From the NCBI GenBank assembly GCA_009784935.1, contig WQXI01000004.1:1-64000 (forward strand): 64,000 nucleotides of DNA. The letters are read 5' to 3'. The notes below the pieces were generated by a model that was given only the letters and a program-made list of their open reading frames with translations, was not told where the DNA came from and did not search any database. Positions 807 through 14,004 of this stretch are shown here, in pieces. The stretch's first letter is position 1. Every line of letters starts with the position of its first letter. The translations under genes and the position numbers were made by a program. This stretch comes from Treponema sp. (lineage in GTDB: Bacteria; Spirochaetota; Spirochaetia; Treponematales; Breznakiellaceae).

Positions 807-834
807 ATTAGGGCGCCGTTACACAAATAAGAAT

Positions 835-892
835 TTACCACAGAGTTTCACGGAGGAAGATCTCACACAGGTCTTTGTGTGATGGATTTGAA
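835..892. repeat. Dispersed CACAGAG-type repeat
   Basis: Starts ACCACAGAG and carries the CACGGAGGAAG and TCACACAGG words seen in the other copies of this window (for example near 2918, 3523, 4888, 22150, 29352 and 45725). Non-coding here. Confidence 0.6.
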
Positions 893-916
893 AATAAATT
901 TTTAAGGTGATTTTGT

Positions 917-988
917 CTCCGCGTTGCGGAGCCGACGAACTATAAGTTCGTCAATTTAATTCGCCGCTAAAAGCGGCGTAAACAGGAG
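917..988 (+). promoter_or_regulatory. Triple-hairpin leader, copy 1
   Basis: Three back-to-back perfect hairpins: 917-922/926-931 (6 bp), 934-941/945-952 (8 bp) and 962-968/972-978 (7 bp), each with a 3-nt loop. They are followed by the ribosome site AGGAG (984-988) and the ATG at 995. The same leader stands before the next gene (1671-1757), so it is a conserved 5' element. It could control translation or mRNA stability of both genes. There is no U-run, so it is not a simple terminator. Confidence 0.6.
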
Positions 989-8010: not shown

Positions 8011-8095
8011 GGAGCGGTGTCCGAGTGGTTGAAGGAGGCGGTCTTGAAAACCGTTGAGCCGCAAGGTTCCGTGGGTTCGAATCCCACCTGCTCCG
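8011..8095 (+). tRNA. tRNA-Ser(UGA)
   Basis: Class II tRNA with acceptor pair GGAGCGG/CTGCTCC, anticodon loop CTTGAAA (anticodon TGA), a long variable arm and T-arm GTGGGTTCGAATCCCAC. CCA is not encoded. Its last 17 bases are repeated exactly at 8301-8317, at the end of the following element. Confidence 0.96.
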
Positions 8096-8097
8096 TT

Positions 8098-8146
8098 ACG
8101 AAAAACACAATGTGTTTTTCGTTTGGGAGTTTACGCAGTAAACTCC
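8098..8146 (+). repeat. Paired hairpins after tRNA-Ser(UGA)
   Basis: An A-rich/T-rich hairpin (8098-8108/8112-8122), which may stop tRNA transcription, is followed by the GGAGTTTAC/GTAAACTCC hairpin (8126-8146). The same two-part arrangement recurs after the element and after other tRNA-Ser genes. Confidence 0.55.
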
Positions 8147-8164
8147 ATACATATATAGGTGTCT

Positions 8165-8317
8165 GTGGGATTCGAAACGTAGTGTTGCTTTAAGTTTGTA
8201 AGGCGAATGCCTTGCAATAAAATAACTCGGCGCAGGATGCGCCGGGCAACACGAAGACGGGGGTGGAAGGAGCGAACAGGAGGTTTGCGACTGGAATCCC
8301 GAATCCCACCTGCTCCG
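8165..8317 (+). ncRNA. tRNA-Ser-linked structured element, copy 1
   Basis: Begins GTGGGATTCG and ends CGAATCCCAC (10-bp inverted repeat, 8165-8174/8300-8309), then finishes the tRNA-Ser(UGA) 3' end. Inside, the stem GTGTTGC/GCAACAC (8182-8188/8246-8252) encloses hairpins AAGGC/GCCTT and CGGCGC/GCGCCG. The conserved GAAGACGGGGGTGG strand and the hairpin GCGAAC/GTTTGC follow. Three more copies follow the other tRNA-Ser genes, with paired base changes. Whether it is a transcribed RNA or a small mobile element is open. Confidence 0.55.
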
Positions 8318-8334
8318 TTAACAAAAATGCTTTG

Positions 8335-8368
8335 CATTTTTGTTTGGAAGTTTTCTGCGTAAAACTTC
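8335..8368 (+). repeat. GAAGTTTT hairpin after element copy 1
   Basis: GAAGTTTT (8347-8354) pairs with AAAACTTC (8361-8368), a sister of the GGAGTTTAC hairpins. An A/T hairpin with a GCATTTTTGTT arm precedes it. Confidence 0.45.
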
Positions 8369-8404
8369 ATGAAATTTTTCTGGGGATTGATCCCCAACAT
8401 CCTT

Positions 8405-8492
8405 GGAGCGGTGCGAGAGAGGCCGAATCGGGCTCCCTGCTAAGGAGTTGTGCCCCGCAAGGGTACCGAGGGTTCGAATCCCTCCTGCTCCG
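8405..8492 (+). tRNA. tRNA-Ser(GCU)
   Basis: Class II tRNA with acceptor GGAGCGG/CTGCTCC, anticodon loop CTGCTAA (anticodon GCT), a long variable arm and T-arm GAGGGTTCGAATCCCTC. It reads the AGU/AGC serine codons. It is followed by A/T and GGAGTTTAC hairpins (8496-8542) and then element copy 2. Confidence 0.96.
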
Positions 8493-8521
8493 TTAACAAA
8501 AATGCTTCGCATTTTTGTTTA

Positions 8522-8542
8522 GGAGTTTACTTCGTAAACTCC
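8522..8542 (+). repeat. GGAGTTTAC hairpin
   Basis: GGAGTTTAC (8522-8530) and GTAAACTCC (8534-8542) with loop TTC, at the same place relative to its tRNA as 8126-8146. Confidence 0.5.
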
Positions 8543-8559
8543 ATAATATATATGTGTTC

Positions 8560-8712
8560 GAGGGATTCGAAACGTAGTGTTGCTTTAAGTTTGTAAGGCG
8601 AATGCCTTGCAATAAATTAATTCGGTGCAGGAAGCGCCGGGCAACACGAAGACGGGGGTGGAAGGAGCAAACAGGAGGTTTGCGACTGGAATCCCGAATC
8701 CCTCCTGCTCCG
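8560..8712 (+). ncRNA. tRNA-Ser-linked structured element, copy 2
   Basis: Ends GAGGGATTCG (8560-8569) and CGAATCCCTC (8695-8704) match the T-arm of the adjacent tRNA-Ser(GCU), and its tail repeats that tRNA's last 17 bases. Closing stem 8577-8583/8641-8647. The inner hairpin is CGGTGC/GCGCCG (a G-T pair where copy 1 has G-C), and the last hairpin is GCAAAC/GTTTGC. Confidence 0.55.
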
Positions 8713-8745
8713 TTAATAAAAAAACGCAAGGCGTTTTTTTATTTT

Positions 8746-8795
8746 GAAGTTTTACTGCGTAAAACTTCATACTTGATTGGGTTTACTTTGTAAAC
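8746..8795 (+). repeat. Hairpins between element copy 2 and tRNA-Arg
   Basis: GAAGTTTTAC/GTAAAACTTC (8746-8755/8759-8768), then GTTTAC/GTAAAC (8781-8786/8790-8795) followed by TCCATAC, the usual tail of this hairpin family. Confidence 0.45.
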
Positions 8796-8810
8796 TCCAT
8801 ACATTTTATT

Positions 8811-8884
8811 GAAGCTGTAGCTAAGCTGGATATAGCATCAGATTGCGGATCTGAAGGTCGGACGTTCGAATCGTCTCAGCTTCA
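8811..8884 (+). tRNA. tRNA-Arg(GCG)
   Basis: 74-nt tRNA with acceptor GAAGCTG paired to the 3' CAGCTTC, anticodon stem TCAGA/TCTGA with loop TTGCGGA (anticodon GCG) and T-loop GTTCGAAT. Unlike the tRNA-Ser genes, no element follows it; the GH43 gene starts 11 bases later. Confidence 0.93.
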
Positions 8885-8895
8885 TAAAGAAAGAA

Positions 8896-10407
8896 ATGTC
8901 AAGAAAAATGAATGGTTCTAAAAAAATAATTCTATTTTTGGCAGCTGCCGTTTTAACAACATGCGCCGCGCTGAGCGGCAGCAAAACACCCGTAAAAATC
9001 GAAGCTTACAAAGCCCTGACAGACCGCAATCCGATTATGACTCATACATTCGGCGCTGACCCTACAGTGCTGGTCTACAACGATCGTGTTTATATTTATA
9101 TGACAGGCGATGTACTTGAATATGATCATAATTTAAATATCAAAACTAATTCTTACAATAATATAAATACATTAAGAGTTGTTTCCAGCGCAGACCTTGC
9201 AAACTGGGTTTACCATGAACCGATAAAAGCTGCAGGTCATGACGGAATAGCAAGATGGGCGCAGCGTTCATGGGCTCCCGCTATAACTTATAAAAAAATA
9301 AACGGACAGGATAAATTTTTCCTGTATTTTTCGAATAACGCAAACGGAGTGGGCGTTTTAACAGCCGACTCTCCTTTGGGTCCGTGGACAGATCCGATAG
9401 GAAGAGCGCTAGTTTCAAGGCAGACGCCTAACTGCGCTGATGTGCCGTGGGTATTTGATCCTGCAGTTCTCATCGATGATGACGGAAAAGCATATTTATA
9501 CTTTGGCGGCGGTGTTCCGCAAGGCAGAGAAGCTGATCCCGGTTCTGCCCGCGTTGTTCAGCTAAACAGCGATATGATTTCTCTCGCTGGCGATCCTGTA
9601 AAAATTGATGTGCCTTATTTTTTTGAAGCGCTTGCGATGAATAAATTAAACGGAAAATATATTTTATCGTATTGCACAAACTGGAGCGTAACAGATCAGG
9701 CAAGAAGCAGACTGAGAATTGACAGAGCTGTAATCGCAATAATGTCAGGCGACAATCCAATGGGACCTTTTACGCTTGAAAGAACAATATTCAGAAACCC
9801 CGGTACGTTTTTCGGCTTTTGGGGAAATAACCATCACGATATATTTCAATTTAAAGGACAGTGGTACTTAGCATATCATTCACAGATTCTTGAAGAAGCA
9901 ATGGGCATACGAAGCAAAGGTTATCGCGTAACGCATATTGATACAATTAGAATGAACAACGGTCAGTTTGAATCTGTAACAGGAACACGAAGAGGCGTTG
10001 AGCAGGCAGGAAGATTAAATCCGTACATTTGGCACTTGGGAGCAAAAAGCGCAATTTCTGCAGGAATATCTTTTGAGAAAGAGAATGCGTCAGCAAATGC
10101 AGACGGAGCATGGCTTGGAATCGTTGGCGCCGATTTTGGAAACACAGGCGCAAGAAGCATGACAATTTCTGCGTACGCACAGCGCGGAACAGATCGGAGA
10201 GCTGACAATTCTATCGAAATACGAACCGGCTCCCCGTTTGACAGCGGAAACTTTCCGCAAAGCGAAGTTATCGGAAATTTAACAATCGGAAACTCTGAAT
10301 CAGCAAATTTTAAATTAGAATTAACAAAAGCAATTACCGGTATTCAGGATATATATTTTATTCTAAACGGTAACTTTGTTCTTGATGCATGGCAATTTAA
10401 CGAGTAA
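8896..10407 (+). CDS. Glycoside hydrolase family 43 with C-terminal CBM-like domain
   Basis: 503 residues. The N-terminus is a signal peptide; a Cys at ~23 (VLTTCAALSG) makes lipidation possible. The five-bladed GH43 catalytic domain shows the three acidic residues: D55 in FGADPTVLVYND (base), the D in PWVFDPAVLIDDDG (pKa modulator) and the E in YFFEALAMN (acid). Residues ~375-503 form a beta-rich domain like CBM6/CBM36 (SIEIRTGSPFDSG..., ending VLDAWQF). The likely role is cutting arabinose or xylose from arabinoxylan outside the cytoplasm, partnered by the GH10 xylanase at 42.2-43.4 kb. Start ATG 8896 or 8908. It sits 11 bases after tRNA-Arg, so it may be cut from a joint transcript. Confidence 0.88.
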   Translation: MSRKMNGSKKIILFLAAAVLTTCAALSGSKTPVKIEAYKALTDRNPIMTHTFGADPTVLVYNDRVYIYMTGDVLEYDHNLNIKTNSYNNINTLRVVSSADLANWVYHEPIKAAGHDGIARWAQRSWAPAITYKKINGQDKFFLYFSNNANGVGVLTADSPLGPWTDPIGRALVSRQTPNCADVPWVFDPAVLIDDDGKAYLYFGGGVPQGREADPGSARVVQLNSDMISLAGDPVKIDVPYFFEALAMNKLNGKYILSYCTNWSVTDQARSRLRIDRAVIAIMSGDNPMGPFTLERTIFRNPGTFFGFWGNNHHDIFQFKGQWYLAYHSQILEEAMGIRSKGYRVTHIDTIRMNNGQFESVTGTRRGVEQAGRLNPYIWHLGAKSAISAGISFEKENASANADGAWLGIVGADFGNTGARSMTISAYAQRGTDRRADNSIEIRTGSPFDSGNFPQSEVIGNLTIGNSESANFKLELTKAITGIQDIYFILNGNFVLDAWQFNE

Positions 10408-10417
10408 ATCAATAACA

Positions 10418-10446
10418 TTGACAAAAAACATTTTAAGTGTTATTAT
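10418..10446 (+). promoter_or_regulatory. Near-consensus promoter, start codon at expected +1
   Basis: TTGACA (10418-10423), exactly 17 bp, then TATTAT (10441-10446). Only six bases separate the -10 box from the ATG at 10453, so the predicted transcript would start at or next to the start codon. Confidence 0.75.
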
Positions 10447-10452
10447 GTTTAT

Positions 10453-11037
10453 ATGATTAATATAAAAAGAAGTTTACTTTTTACAGTTGTTATCTTGATC
10501 TGCGCGGCACAGAGTTTATCTGCGGCTGACACATCAAATTGGACACCTCCAAGATCAATGAACGAGTTATTGGGCAGATGGGAAGGAAGTGTTATAATAC
10601 CTATTTCCGGTGATACAGAAAAAATGCTTCCCAATTCTTCATTTAGATTTGATCTCACATTTGAATACATTGTCTCATATGAAGTTAATGTAATTATGAG
10701 ACTGGATATGGAAAGATTTTTGGTAGATTTCATAGAACAGCCGCAATTAAAAGCGATGGGGCTGTCAAAAGACACAATATGGCAGATGTTAAGTCTTAGT
10801 ATGGCAGACGACGAAGAAATGACTTTTGGAGAATATTATGTAAGCCGTTCAATGTCATATCCATTGCCTGCATTGCGAGAATCATCCTTAGGTGCTTTTA
10901 TCGAAGGTTTCGACGGACAATTATTGCTTAACGAAGAAAGAAATAAAATGTTAATGGATTTTTCCGCTGCAAGCGTCGATTTTTCGATGGGACTCGGCGG
11001 CGAATCTAATTCGCAGATAATCCTTGATAAAAGATAG
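10453..11037 (+). CDS. Secreted protein of unknown function
   Basis: 194 residues with a classic signal peptide (KRSLLFTVVILICAAQSLSA, cleavage after SA-A). The mature part begins with WTPPRSMNELLGRWEGSV, which resembles lipocalin-like 'LLGrWeG' starts of secreted beta-barrel proteins, then mixed polar sequence. No family assigned. The signal peptide begins at this ATG, which makes the start secure even though no ribosome site exists and a strong promoter sits only six bases upstream (leaderless candidate). Confidence 0.75.
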   Translation: MINIKRSLLFTVVILICAAQSLSAADTSNWTPPRSMNELLGRWEGSVIIPISGDTEKMLPNSSFRFDLTFEYIVSYEVNVIMRLDMERFLVDFIEQPQLKAMGLSKDTIWQMLSLSMADDEEMTFGEYYVSRSMSYPLPALRESSLGAFIEGFDGQLLLNEERNKMLMDFSAASVDFSMGLGGESNSQIILDKR

Positions 11038-11038
11038 A

Positions 11039-11070
11039 TTGACATAACACCCTTAAAAAGCTACTGTAAT
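11039..11070 (+). promoter_or_regulatory. Promoter for tRNA-Ser(CGA)
   Basis: TTGACA (11039-11044) starts in the stop-codon region of the previous gene. With 17 bp it is followed by TACTGT (11062-11067), with the alternative TGTAAT (11065-11070) at 20 bp. Confidence 0.55.
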
Positions 11071-11089
11071 TAAAGACAATAGCTCTTTT

Positions 11090-11176
11090 GGAGAGATGCG
11101 AGAGCGGTTGAATCGGGCGGTCTCGAAAACCGTTGAGCCCTCACGGGCTCCGAGGGTTCGAATCCCTCTCTCTCCG
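11090..11176 (+). tRNA. tRNA-Ser(CGA)
   Basis: Class II tRNA with acceptor GGAGAGA/TCTCTCC, anticodon loop TCTCGAAAA (anticodon CGA), a long variable arm and T-arm GAGGGTTCGAATCCCTC. Confidence 0.96.
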
Positions 11177-11193
11177 AACGAAGTGAGGAGGGA

Positions 11194-11338
11194 GAGGGAT
11201 TCGAAACGCAGCATTGCTTTAATAATTGCAAGGCGAAAGCCTTGCTAGATATTTTCCAGCGCAGGAAGCGCTGGGCAATGCGAAGACGGGGGTGGAAGGA
11301 GCAAACACGAGGTTTGCGACTGGAACCCCGAATCCCTC
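11194..11338 (+). ncRNA. tRNA-Ser-linked structured element, copy 3
   Basis: Ends GAGGGATTCG/CGAATCCCTC (11194-11203/11329-11338). Here the closing stem is GCATTGC/GCAATGC (11211-11217/11275-11281), which differs from the other copies by matched changes on both sides, as does CAGCGC/GCGCTG. The tRNA tail after the right end is lost: it goes straight into GTAAACTCCATAC, half of the usual GGAGTTTAC hairpin. It follows the tRNA more closely than other copies, without an A/T hairpin in between. Confidence 0.55.
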
Positions 11339-11375
11339 GTAAACTCCATACTGTAATCTCAAGGAATTAACAAAA

Positions 11376-13295
11376 ATGAAAACAAGAATATTACTCGCAA
11401 TTTTTGCTATTTTAACAGTGCAGTTTGCCGCGGCTTTGGAACCCATTATCATCGGACAAAGACTTTCTGATTTAGATTTTCTTAATTCAGCGCCGGAAAC
11501 CCCGTCTGGTATTCCCATATCAGAACTGGAACAGTTCATTGACAATTATACAGCAGAATACATCGGCACAAAAACCGCAGGCGCGGCTATTGCGGTTGTC
11601 AAAAACGGCGAAGTAGTCTTTAGCAAAGCTTACGGTTACGCCGTACAGGATGAAACAGAGGTAGCAACAGATTCCGTTTTTGAATGGGGTTCCGGAACAA
11701 AGCTGCTTGTGTGGACTAGCGTCATGCAACTTGCAGAACAGGGAAAGATCGACTTAAATGCGGATATAAGACAATATTTGCCCAATAACTTTCTTAGAAA
11801 ACTAAGATATGAAACACCTGTAACAATGTACAACCTTATGCACCATAATGCAGGATGGGAAGATAGTGTTATAAATCTGTTTTATAGCTCTCCAAAAGTC
11901 GTTCCAACTCTGGAAAGACAGTTACGCGAAAATGAGCCCAGACAAATATACAAACCGGGAACAATCGTTGCGTATTCCAATTACGGCACAGCCCTTGCAG
12001 GTTTTATTGTTGAACATATTTCGAGAATGCCGTTTTATCAATATGTTCATGAAAATATTTTTGAACCTCTTGGCATGACAGATACCAGCATTCATCCTCT
12101 GCAGGAAGATAATCCAAACATAAGAGAAAGACGCTCGTTGATTAAAGGGCACGTAATAACAGGAGACAGACCAACCCCAATGGGAGGCGAAAGAATATAC
12201 ATTGGGTTATATCCTGCGGGAAGCGCAATCGGCACCGTAAGCGATGCTGCAAAATTTTTATCAGCGCTCATGCCTTTAGAAATCGAAACAAGCAAACTTT
12301 TTAATAATAACGATACCTTAAAAAAGATGCTTTCTGTGAGTTACTCCTTCATAGACGGATTCCCCGGTATAGCGCACGGCTTTTTTGAAAACTTCGCCGC
12401 AGTAAATACTTTGGGTCACGGCGGTAATACTGCCGCTTTTTCCAGTCTTTTTACCTTTTCTGCAAAAGAACGTTTTGCAGTTGTAATAATGACGAACCAG
12501 GCAAGTGAAACAGCAATATGCAATGGATTAACAAAAGCGTTGTTCGGCGAATATGTACCGCAGGAAAATATCGGCGAACTTCCAGATATCAGAAACTTTT
12601 CGTTTTCGGGTTGGTATACAATGGCCAGGAGACCTGCAACAGGTTTTACCAAATTGATAATGTCTGCAGCGATGATGTTTCCGGCTTCGGCAGTAGATGA
12701 AAACACAGTAAACATCGGAGGAGCCATATTTGTTCAGGTGAGTCCGTTTGTTTTTAAAAACACAGGAGGAAACCCGCTTCTTGATATTGTAAATTTTATC
12801 GGCGTTGAGACTGTAGGCAGCATTGAAAGAGGAAAAGTTACCCGCATTTCTGTCGGATATTTTGATGTACTGCCTGTAACTGCAGGCAGGGCAGCAGTTA
12901 TCAATATAAGCATTATAATTTTTATATTATGCTTTTTATATATTTTAGCGGCTGTAATAATAACAATAATAGGCGTTATTAAAAACCGAAAAAAAAGACT
13001 GCCGTCTAACCTGATAAAAAAACTGAATATTATTCTTTATTCTTTCATGGCGGCAGTGTTCATCAATAATATTATTTTAGCTGTACGGGCATTGTCTTTT
13101 TCGCCATACACATCTTTGATCCCGCATTTTATTCTTAACATCGCATACATAGTTTTTGTACCGTTTTGCATTGGCTTTATGTTTGCCAAACGAAAAATTG
13201 AAACATCAAAAGCCAACATGGTCTTTTATACATTTACCATGGTCTTTTCGTTTGTATTTTCGGCATTATTATTCGCCTGGGAATTTTGGCGTTAA
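11376..13295 (+). CDS. Serine beta-lactamase-fold hydrolase with C-terminal membrane segments
   Basis: 639 residues. A signal peptide (MKTRILLAIFAILTVQFAAA) precedes a class C beta-lactamase/PBP-fold domain (~45-400): SGTK gives the nucleophile Ser and Lys (S-x-x-K) in FEWGSGTKLLVW, YSNYG is the Y-x-N motif, and LGHGGNTAAF holds the H-x-G motif. The C-terminal ~120 residues contain about four hydrophobic helices (for example INISIIIFILCFLYILAAVIIT), as in membrane-tethered serine hydrolases of this family. Substrate unknown; a D-Ala-D-Ala-type amide or an ester is the family expectation. RBS AAGGA lies about ten bases upstream. Confidence 0.88.
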   Translation: MKTRILLAIFAILTVQFAAALEPIIIGQRLSDLDFLNSAPETPSGIPISELEQFIDNYTAEYIGTKTAGAAIAVVKNGEVVFSKAYGYAVQDETEVATDSVFEWGSGTKLLVWTSVMQLAEQGKIDLNADIRQYLPNNFLRKLRYETPVTMYNLMHHNAGWEDSVINLFYSSPKVVPTLERQLRENEPRQIYKPGTIVAYSNYGTALAGFIVEHISRMPFYQYVHENIFEPLGMTDTSIHPLQEDNPNIRERRSLIKGHVITGDRPTPMGGERIYIGLYPAGSAIGTVSDAAKFLSALMPLEIETSKLFNNNDTLKKMLSVSYSFIDGFPGIAHGFFENFAAVNTLGHGGNTAAFSSLFTFSAKERFAVVIMTNQASETAICNGLTKALFGEYVPQENIGELPDIRNFSFSGWYTMARRPATGFTKLIMSAAMMFPASAVDENTVNIGGAIFVQVSPFVFKNTGGNPLLDIVNFIGVETVGSIERGKVTRISVGYFDVLPVTAGRAAVINISIIIFILCFLYILAAVIITIIGVIKNRKKRLPSNLIKKLNIILYSFMAAVFINNIILAVRALSFSPYTSLIPHFILNIAYIVFVPFCIGFMFAKRKIETSKANMVFYTFTMVFSFVFSALLFAWEFWR

Positions 13296-13329
13296 CGCCT
13301 GGCGTTAGAACGCCTAGCGTTAAAACGCT
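13288..13329 (+). repeat. Three consecutive GCGTT/AACGC palindromes
   Basis: GGCGTTAACGCC (13288-13299, containing the stop codon of the hydrolase gene), then GGCGTT/AACGCC (13301-13306/13309-13314), then AGCGTT/AACGCT (13316-13321/13324-13329). No T-run follows, so this is not a standard terminator. Confidence 0.6.
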
Positions 13330-13345
13330 TACGTTAAAAACAGTA

Positions 13346-13374
13346 TTGTAACGATTCCCGGTTTATGATAGAAT
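13346..13374 (+). promoter_or_regulatory. Promoter for tRNA-Ser(GGA)
   Basis: TTGTAA (13346-13351), a 17-bp spacer and TAGAAT (13369-13374); the predicted start is a few bases before the tRNA at 13389. Confidence 0.6.
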
Positions 13375-13388
13375 GGAATCTGATACTA

Positions 13389-13474
13389 GGAGAGATGTCC
13401 GAGTGGTCGAAGGTGTACGCTTGGAAAGCGTATGTGCCCAAAAGGTACCGAGGGTTCAAATCCCTCTCTCTCCG
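13389..13474 (+). tRNA. tRNA-Ser(GGA)
   Basis: Class II tRNA with acceptor GGAGAGA/TCTCTCC, anticodon loop CTTGGAAAG (anticodon GGA) and T-arm GAGGGTTCAAATCCCTC. An A/T hairpin with TTAGTG/CACTAA (13486-13512) follows as likely terminator. Confidence 0.96.
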
Positions 13475-13523
13475 ATAAATAAAAAATTAGTGTTTACACT
13501 AATTTTTTATTTAAATTGATATA

Positions 13524-13677
13524 GAGAGGATTTGAACCGGAGTGTTGCTGTATTACTTCAAGGCGAAAGCCTTGCTTTGTTAAAAATCGGCGCACGGATG
13601 CGCCGGCAACACGCAGGCGGGGGTGGAGGGAGCAAACACGAGGTTTGCGACTGGAACCCCGAATCCCTCTCTCTCCG
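13524..13677 (+). ncRNA. tRNA-Ser-linked structured element, copy 4
   Basis: Left end GAGAGGATTTG (13524-13534), right end CGAATCCCTC (13660-13669), then the tail CTCTCTCCG of the tRNA-Ser(GGA) 3' end. Closing stem GTGTTGC/GCAACAC (13542-13548/13606-13612), with inner hairpins AAGGC/GCCTT and CGGCGC/GCGCCG and last hairpin GCAAAC/GTTTGC. The T-rich left half has diverged most from the other copies, but all stems are kept. Confidence 0.55.
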
Positions 13678-13706
13678 TTAATAAAAATGCTGCGCATTTT
13701 TATTTG

Positions 13707-13749
13707 GGAGTTTACTGCGTAAACTCCATACTGTAACTAGAGGGATTTG
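13707..13749 (+). repeat. GGAGTTTAC hairpin plus left-end remnant of a fifth element
   Basis: The hairpin GGAGTTTAC/GTAAACTCC (13707-13715/13719-13727) ends in CATAC. GAGGGATTTG (13740-13749) then looks like the left end of another element that has lost everything to its right; the NifU-like gene begins 30 bases later. Confidence 0.45.
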
Positions 13750-13779: not shown

Positions 13780-14004
13780 ATGGAAGAACAAGTAAAGGCT
13801 GCTTTAGAAAATGTGCGTCCTTCATTACAAGCTGACGGCGGTGACGTTGAATTTGTCTCTGTAAGCGCAGACGGAGTTGTTTCTGTACGTCTTACCGGAG
13901 CCTGTGGTCATTGCCCAATGTCCCAGATGACACTTAAAATGGGAATAGAAAATTATCTAAAAAAGGAAATACCTCAGGTTAAAGAAGTTGTCCGCGTCGA
14001 ATAA
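13780..14004 (+). CDS. NifU C-terminal domain (Nfu-type) iron-sulfur protein
   Basis: 74 residues, essentially one NifU C-terminal domain: LENVRPSLQADGGDVEFVSV and GACGHCPMSQMTLKMGIE, with the conserved C-x-x-C that binds a transferable 4Fe-4S cluster. AAGAGG lies before the ATG. It overlaps the YgiQ-type radical-SAM gene, itself an iron-sulfur enzyme, so cluster supply to that neighbour is plausible but not shown. Confidence 0.93.
   Translation: MEEQVKAALENVRPSLQADGGDVEFVSVSADGVVSVRLTGACGHCPMSQMTLKMGIENYLKKEIPQVKEVVRVE

Follow-up and report, generated by a model that had tools for sequence, protein, structure and literature searches.

Short structured elements with tRNA-matched ends downstream of tRNA and tmRNA genes in Treponema and other spirochaetes

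Genomic islands integrated at transfer RNA (tRNA) genes are recognized by a simple rule, in which an intact tRNA gene is accompanied by a displaced fragment of that gene in the same orientation (Islander, PMC4383910). Candidates shorter than 2 kb or without an integrase are dropped from the Islander survey (PMC4383910). Casposons, which are Cas1-type transposons, insert at the very 3' end of a tRNA gene and generate a target-site duplication of 14-15 bp (PMC6977970). Here we describe gene-free elements of about 200-220 bp located 3' of tRNA and transfer-messenger RNA (tmRNA) genes of spirochaetes, including four tRNA-Ser genes in a 64,000-nt stretch of Treponema sp. (GCA_009784935.1, contig WQXI01000004.1, positions 1-64,000, forward strand; hereafter the window). 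In each, a spacer is followed by a short left arm, a structured body and a right arm, and both arms resemble the end of the adjacent tRNA. No description of such elements was found in the literature searched.

Like the islands and prophages mobilized by tyrosine integrases, the elements are associated with an intact tRNA gene and a downstream, same-orientation 3' fragment of that tRNA, they occur in tandem arrays and they have a T-loop-type boundary. They differ in that they do not reach kilobase length, carry no gene or integrase, include an inverted copy of the tRNA T-arm and have one family of bodies distributed over many tRNA types. The size and integrase filter of Islander may be the reason that they were missed. 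Insertion at the tRNA 3' end with a short duplicate is shared with casposons, but the usual terminal inverted repeats are lacking, Cas1 is absent from the window's genome, the duplicate is 18 bp and the unit is only about 200 bp long.

Integron cassettes and their attC sites are similar to the elements in having a folded, covarying, imperfect-hairpin site with structure conserved over sequence, complementary ends, one-way tandem arrays and a lack of conservation in what lies between sites. Related genomes contain both IntI-like genes and large attC arrays. Unlike integron cassettes, the elements have no RYYYAAC/GTTRRRY boxes, no linked intI and no cassette gene, and their boundary is at C56 of a tRNA. 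In the tyrT operon of Escherichia coli (rtT RNA), tandem repeats lie 3' of the tRNA, each with a copy of the tRNA 3' end; that system is known from one operon and one tRNA, and it is by this description that we set the elements apart from it. The AGGA/ANGGA hairpin loops of the elements recall the CsrB/RsmZ sponge RNAs and resemble the CsrA-type motif known from CsrB. In contrast to those RNAs, the elements have just two hairpins of this kind and ends that match a tRNA; no promoter of their own was found, and they score below all Rfam thresholds. A non-autonomous Y1 (REP-like) element or a retroelement or retron would imply a host Y1 transposase or reverse transcriptase, respectively, and the window's genome has a match to neither.

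Elements at tRNA and tmRNA ends

The original prediction, that a related element on the same strand follows each of the four tRNA-Ser genes of the window, is borne out by alignment and by covariance-model matches, of which there are exactly four in the window (8165-8319, 8560-8714, 11194-11348 and 13525-13679). Copies 1 and 2 indeed match their own tRNA at both ends, including the CAC/CTC difference between the two genes. Copy 3 has, as was stated, lost tail sequence (the last 8 nt of the tail), and the tRNA-Arg of the cluster is without an element. The right arm of copy 4 is one base off its tRNA (CGAATCC vs CAAATCC), whereas its left arm still has the base of the tRNA there. The folds of copies 1 and 4 are far more stable than those of shuffled sequences (z-scores of -5.3 and -4.2). 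Apart from tRNA, no Rfam family matched the window above threshold, and assignment to a known Rfam RNA was rejected because all matches to the element were below the thresholds.

Two covariance models were used more widely: one built on the four window copies (R1) and a broader one (R2). E-values of models built in this analysis are rough, and the genomes are species representatives that include many incomplete metagenome bins, so that absence of a gene or element is weak evidence. Thirteen convincing copies were identified in the window's genome with R1, nine of them adjoining other tRNAs or tmRNA. The same model detected the element in 41 of 60 relatives, and the number of copies per genome ranges from 0 to 23 within the genus; with R2 it was found in 80 of 393 sampled Spirochaetota genomes. 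A search of 84,980 species genomes with a strict pattern returned 32 stretches, 31 of which are spirochaete (mostly Treponema metagenome bins). The remaining one is on a contig labelled Candidatus Latescibacterota (L169), where a single element (820-956, minus strand) adjoins tRNA-Leu(CAG); this may reflect misbinning or transfer. An AbiEii-like fragment lies near this element. Phages, plasmids and viral contigs were searched and gave no match, and carriage by such sequences was rejected on this basis.

In the window's genome and its relatives, 120 of 154 matches are on the same strand as a tRNA or tmRNA gene and 12-87 nt downstream of it (median 61 nt). Most of the others are tandem copies or are located at contig ends. 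The adjacent genes represent 17 tRNA families (Ser, Pro, Ala, Glu, Gln, Leu, Gly, Arg, His, Tyr, Lys, Val, Asp, Trp, Met, Thr and Asn) in addition to tmRNA, a tally that depends on the tRNA calls made by ARAGORN. At loci without an ARAGORN call, a sequence corresponding to the tRNA end can usually still be seen upstream. The same pattern of adjacency was seen in a second sample that included other families and orders. Thus the proposed restriction to tRNA-Ser is wrong, and a tRNA-Ser-specific family was rejected given the copies at other tRNAs and tmRNA. The association with tRNA genes in general holds: no matches were found away from tRNAs, the tail follows the adjacent tRNA in other genomes too, and among the matches there was no convincing copy in the opposite orientation.

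The resemblance of the right end to its own tRNA is specific, with a mean of 17.6 of the last 20 nt matching, vs 11.2 of 20 for other tRNAs (120 copies). The copy begins sharply at C56 of the T-loop in 109 of 128 cases, and in 122 of 156 the right arm reproduces C56-N73 of the adjacent tRNA exactly (18/18). The left arm corresponds to T54-N65 in reverse complement, with agreement at 11-12 of 12 positions in 135 of 156 copies, and it extends into the acceptor strand in some deeper families. Its AA complements T54-T55, two bases that the right arm does not include; TT precedes the right copy in only 3 of 133 cases, the preceding bases being GG, CC or GC. Where tRNA and right arm disagree, the left arm agrees with the tRNA at 32 positions and with the right arm at 3, although some of these counts are inflated by indels.

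The fold of the body is strongly conserved. Among 71 copies, 40 of 43 base pairs have changed on both sides, and 94% of alignment cells are paired (67% in shuffles and 34-45% in slid controls); in a phylum-wide set, double changes occur at 38 of 42 pairs and 92% of cells are paired, vs 63% in shuffles. Apical AGGA/ANGGA loops are kept in two hairpins while the stems vary, with A(N)GGA present in about 85% of copies. G-U pairs account for 1.1-1.6% of pairs in alignment-free hairpin stems and about 2.5% in alignments, whereas in tRNAs of the same loci they make up 7.5% of the acceptor stem and 6.9% of the T stem. Because the helices are nearly free of G-U, structure at the DNA level is favoured, and this suggests, as a hint only, that a DNA hairpin rather than an RNA is under selection. 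Very stable short RNA hairpins could give a similarly low G-U content.

Insertion is indicated by the syntenic tRNA-Ser(GGA)-nifU locus. The locus is empty in five genomes (G034, in which 28 bp separate the tRNA from the ATG, and G433, G033, G024 and G432) and filled in seven (G000, G021, G014, G009, G007, G022 and G032). In G021, the 18-nt tRNA-end copy is followed on its right by a trailer of native length (29 bp, reaching to the nifU start). From this position of the native trailer, it follows that the inserted unit comprises spacer, left arm and body, with C56-N73 duplicated. The idea that the spacer is itself the native trailer, with an 80-bp target duplication, was dropped, since comparison with the empty sites puts that trailer on the far side of the 18-nt copy. 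At this same tRNA, G014 and G009 have a body type different from that of G000 and G021, so the site must have been filled or refilled independently. Tandem arrays have a single orientation and a single junction; full and partial tandem copies start at C56 and vary in where they end. Very probably, the elements are insertions with a duplicated tRNA end. That they are small satellites integrating at tRNA 3' ends, as was originally suggested, is supported by the displaced fragment beside an intact tRNA, the fixed orientation, the empty and filled versions of one locus and the tandem arrays. That one and the same tRNA carries a unit in some species and none in others points to very small mobile elements of an undescribed kind.

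How the elements may move

Different tRNAs can be followed by closely similar bodies. Two bodies of G015, one beside tRNA-His and the other beside tRNA-Arg, share 96% identity while the 18-nt tRNA copies differ at 9 positions; both arms of each element fit its own tRNA and the spacers are unrelated. On a tree of bodies, the amino acid of the tRNA has to change 56 times (17 is the minimum, and shuffling gives a mean of 75), and there is partial clustering by genome, similar to that by tRNA, though the tree has few columns for its rows and single branches should not be over-read. Spacer similarity does not in general accompany body similarity (mean z about 0.2-0.4), so carriage of the spacer with the body was mostly not seen, the exception being close pairs in tandem tRNA-Ser clusters, where spacers keep 75% identity. 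Either target-copying insertion or gene conversion of bodies between elements already in place would account for this distribution. Spread by gene conversion, put forward earlier for a tRNA-linked RNA, may explain part of the pattern: the bodies are common to different tRNAs, and the arms and spacers are not.

Several steps are shown by the data, namely insertion at the tRNA end, the 18-nt duplicate, the fixed orientation, the tandem arrays and the conserved fold. The 3' end of a tRNA or tmRNA gene gains a unit of ~200-220 bp, composed of a ~61-nt spacer, the left arm, a 120-nt structured body and the 18-nt tRNA-end copy. By the locus comparison, the tRNA is left intact with a second C56-N73 copy to the right of the body. 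More units can follow, head to tail. We tentatively read the elements as non-autonomous mobile insertions at tRNA T-loops that follow an integron-cassette-like logic, rather than as tRNA-Ser-specific genes. It is plausible, again tentatively, that the unit moves as a folded single DNA strand recognized by a site-specific recombinase. The recombinase (its type is a prediction) would act in trans, with strand exchange in the T-loop between positions 55 and 56, and the left arm would in some way come to match the new tRNA. By analogy with integron cassettes, the tRNA T-arm would serve both as attachment site and as the left end of the unit, to which the left arm is complementary; recombination would take place at the folded body, and the spacer would be unconserved cargo. 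The integron is our best working model because it predicts left-arm/left-end complementarity, recognition of a folded single strand, unconserved content and one-way arrays. With less confidence, we consider it possible that the elements represent a new class of gene-free cassettes of ~200 bp that attach at any tRNA or tmRNA T-arm, are mobile in the form of a folded single DNA strand and are adapted at both ends to each new host tRNA.

A number of observations weigh against this interpretation. Conservative recombination alone cannot shift a body from one tRNA (X) to another (Y), because the regenerated tRNA would bear the 3' end of X, yet near-identical bodies sit at different tRNAs. IntI-like tyrosine recombinases are common, and one encoded in the window's genome (L224, 329 aa) speaks for the model, but they score below the curated integron cut-off, their presence is not correlated with that of the element and no recombinase gene is linked to elements save in one neighbourhood in G021; on these grounds an IntI-like enzyme was not accepted as the mobilizer. 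The exchange point is C56 rather than G|TT, and integron boxes are missing from the element ends. The likeness to attC sites is weak and is treated as a lead, with no homology claimed: in 314 kb of integron regions, the only matches of the element model below E 2 are two attC sites (E 0.19 and 0.54; the same two are the best matches in a smaller set, at E 0.065 and 0.18). A motif common to the element and large attC sites likewise stays a lead, since its strict form occurs in only 5 of 22 attC sites. Finally, G-U cells still outnumber A-C cells in the alignments, leaving room for selection at the RNA level.

The sharp C56 boundary, and the host-tRNA right arms on the nearly identical His and Arg bodies, would be explained by target-duplicating transposition or retrotransposition, either through a staggered break, with one cut at T55|C56 and the other where the tRNA ends, or through target-primed copying of an RNA whose tail pairs with the tRNA gene. 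Spacer and body would then be inserted with an 18-bp target-site duplication, the right arm would always be that of the new host tRNA, and the left arm would be matched later by palindrome correction or selection. We regard this as rather unlikely, as a conserved left terminus is lacking (the left arm lies inside the unit, some 61 nt away from the junction) and the enzymes expected of such a process are wanting. The window's genome has no match to reverse transcriptase (RVT_1), Y1 transposase (Y1_Tnp) or Cas1, which led us to reject all three as mobilizers; several other carriers lack one or more of them, and reverse transcriptase is absent from most carriers.

Alternatively, the elements may be a family of host RNA genes: a structured tRNA-trailer RNA, freed by tRNA-processing enzymes via its tRNA-like 3' end and perhaps binding CsrA via the AGGA loops, that spreads slowly by duplication while gene conversion homogenizes the bodies. 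The A(N)GGA loops, weak sub-threshold Rfam matches to RsmX and RsmZ, a CsrA gene in 48 of 60 relatives and the excess of G-U over A-C are consistent with such an RNA. We nevertheless consider it unlikely, given that the frequency of G-U pairs is about one-fifth of that in tRNA stems and that the empty sites and the range of copy number within one genus suggest dispensability. Several carriers have no CsrA match (e.g., G012, 94% complete) and several genomes with CsrA have no element; a CsrA sponge is thus disfavoured, since the loops fit and the co-occurrence does not. A promoter within the spacer was rejected, there being no positional signal above the reverse-strand control. It is highly improbable that the elements are merely decayed tRNA-integrated islands or tandem-duplication debris, inactive in themselves. 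A displaced piece of the tRNA 3' end is the hallmark of tRNA-integrated islands (Islander, PMC4383910), and one 3.5-kb AbiE-like stretch at tRNA-Ala is flanked by copies, but a 120-nt body that is conserved and covaries phylum-wide at many tRNA types is unlike debris.

If they are indeed mobile insertions with integron-like logic, these would be among the smallest integrating elements known, present across a phylum at the majority of tRNA types and fitted at their ends to the tRNA beside them, and tRNA genes would harbour short insertions as a hidden layer, one that is discarded by island finders. They would also provide a natural system for folded single-stranded DNA recombining with tRNA genes, and they would raise the testable question of how element ends are rewritten to fit the target.

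Feature coordinates and additional observations

Table 1. Features of the four tRNA-Ser loci of the window and neighbouring genes.
Feature	Position	Strand	Remarks
tRNA-Ser(UGA), target of copy 1	8011-8095	+	ARAGORN; C56-N73 segment is 8078-8095
Spacer, copy 1	8096-8164	+	Terminator-like hairpin and GTTTAC/GTAAAC hairpin; not conserved in the family
Left arm, copy 1	8165-8176	+	Reverse complement of tRNA T54-N65 (GTGGGATTCGAA)
Structured body, copy 1	8177-8299	+	Closing helix enclosing two hairpins, then a third hairpin; AGGA loops
Right arm, copy 1	8300-8317	+	Exact 18-nt copy of tRNA-Ser(UGA) C56-N73
tRNA-Ser(GCU), target of copy 2	8404-8493	+	ARAGORN; C56-N73 is 8475-8492
Copy 2	8560-8712	+	Left arm 8560-8571, body, right arm 8695-8712 (exact tRNA-Ser(GCU) C56-N73)
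tRNA-Arg(GCG), without element	8810-8885		ARAGORN
tRNA-Ser(CGA), target of copy 3	11089-11177	+	ARAGORN; C56-N73 is 11159-11176
Copy 3	11194-11338	+	Left arm 11194-11205, body, right arm cut to 10 nt (11329-11338)
tRNA-Ser(GGA), target of copy 4	13389-13474	+	ARAGORN; C56-N73 is 13457-13474
Copy 4	13525-13677	+	Left arm 13525-13536, body, right arm 13660-13677 (17/18 vs tRNA end)
nifU-like gene 3' of copy 4	13780-14004	+	Syntenic marker for the empty/filled comparison

In some copies, extra hairpins of ~40-110 nt are present in the loop of the second hairpin (L062 1513-1735, L064 384-578, L052 and L015). At one tRNA-Ala locus (L092 1010-4846; G015:C13), 3.5 kb with AbiEi/AbiEii-like genes lies between two copies of the tRNA-Ala 3' end, each of which is then followed by an element. 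Among 20 IntI-like loci, a single case was found (L225 532-2070; G021:C49) in which the gene ends 80 bp upstream of an element-carrying tRNA-Asp. Another locus (L239 3010-6718; G030:C26) has an IntI-like recombinase gene together with an array of attC-like sites that are large (about 170 nt), and similar sites were identified in 26 of 40 genomes of the genus.

A GTTTAC-NNN-GTAAAC hairpin occurs after tRNAs and elements, in the window at 8129-8143, 8525-8539, 8781-8795 and 13710-13724; five matches with at most one mismatch were counted in the window, vs 0.24 expected. On the minus strand, 3' of copy 2 (8711-8795), there is a sub-threshold match to the Rfam TD-2 RNA (39 bits, E 0.002).

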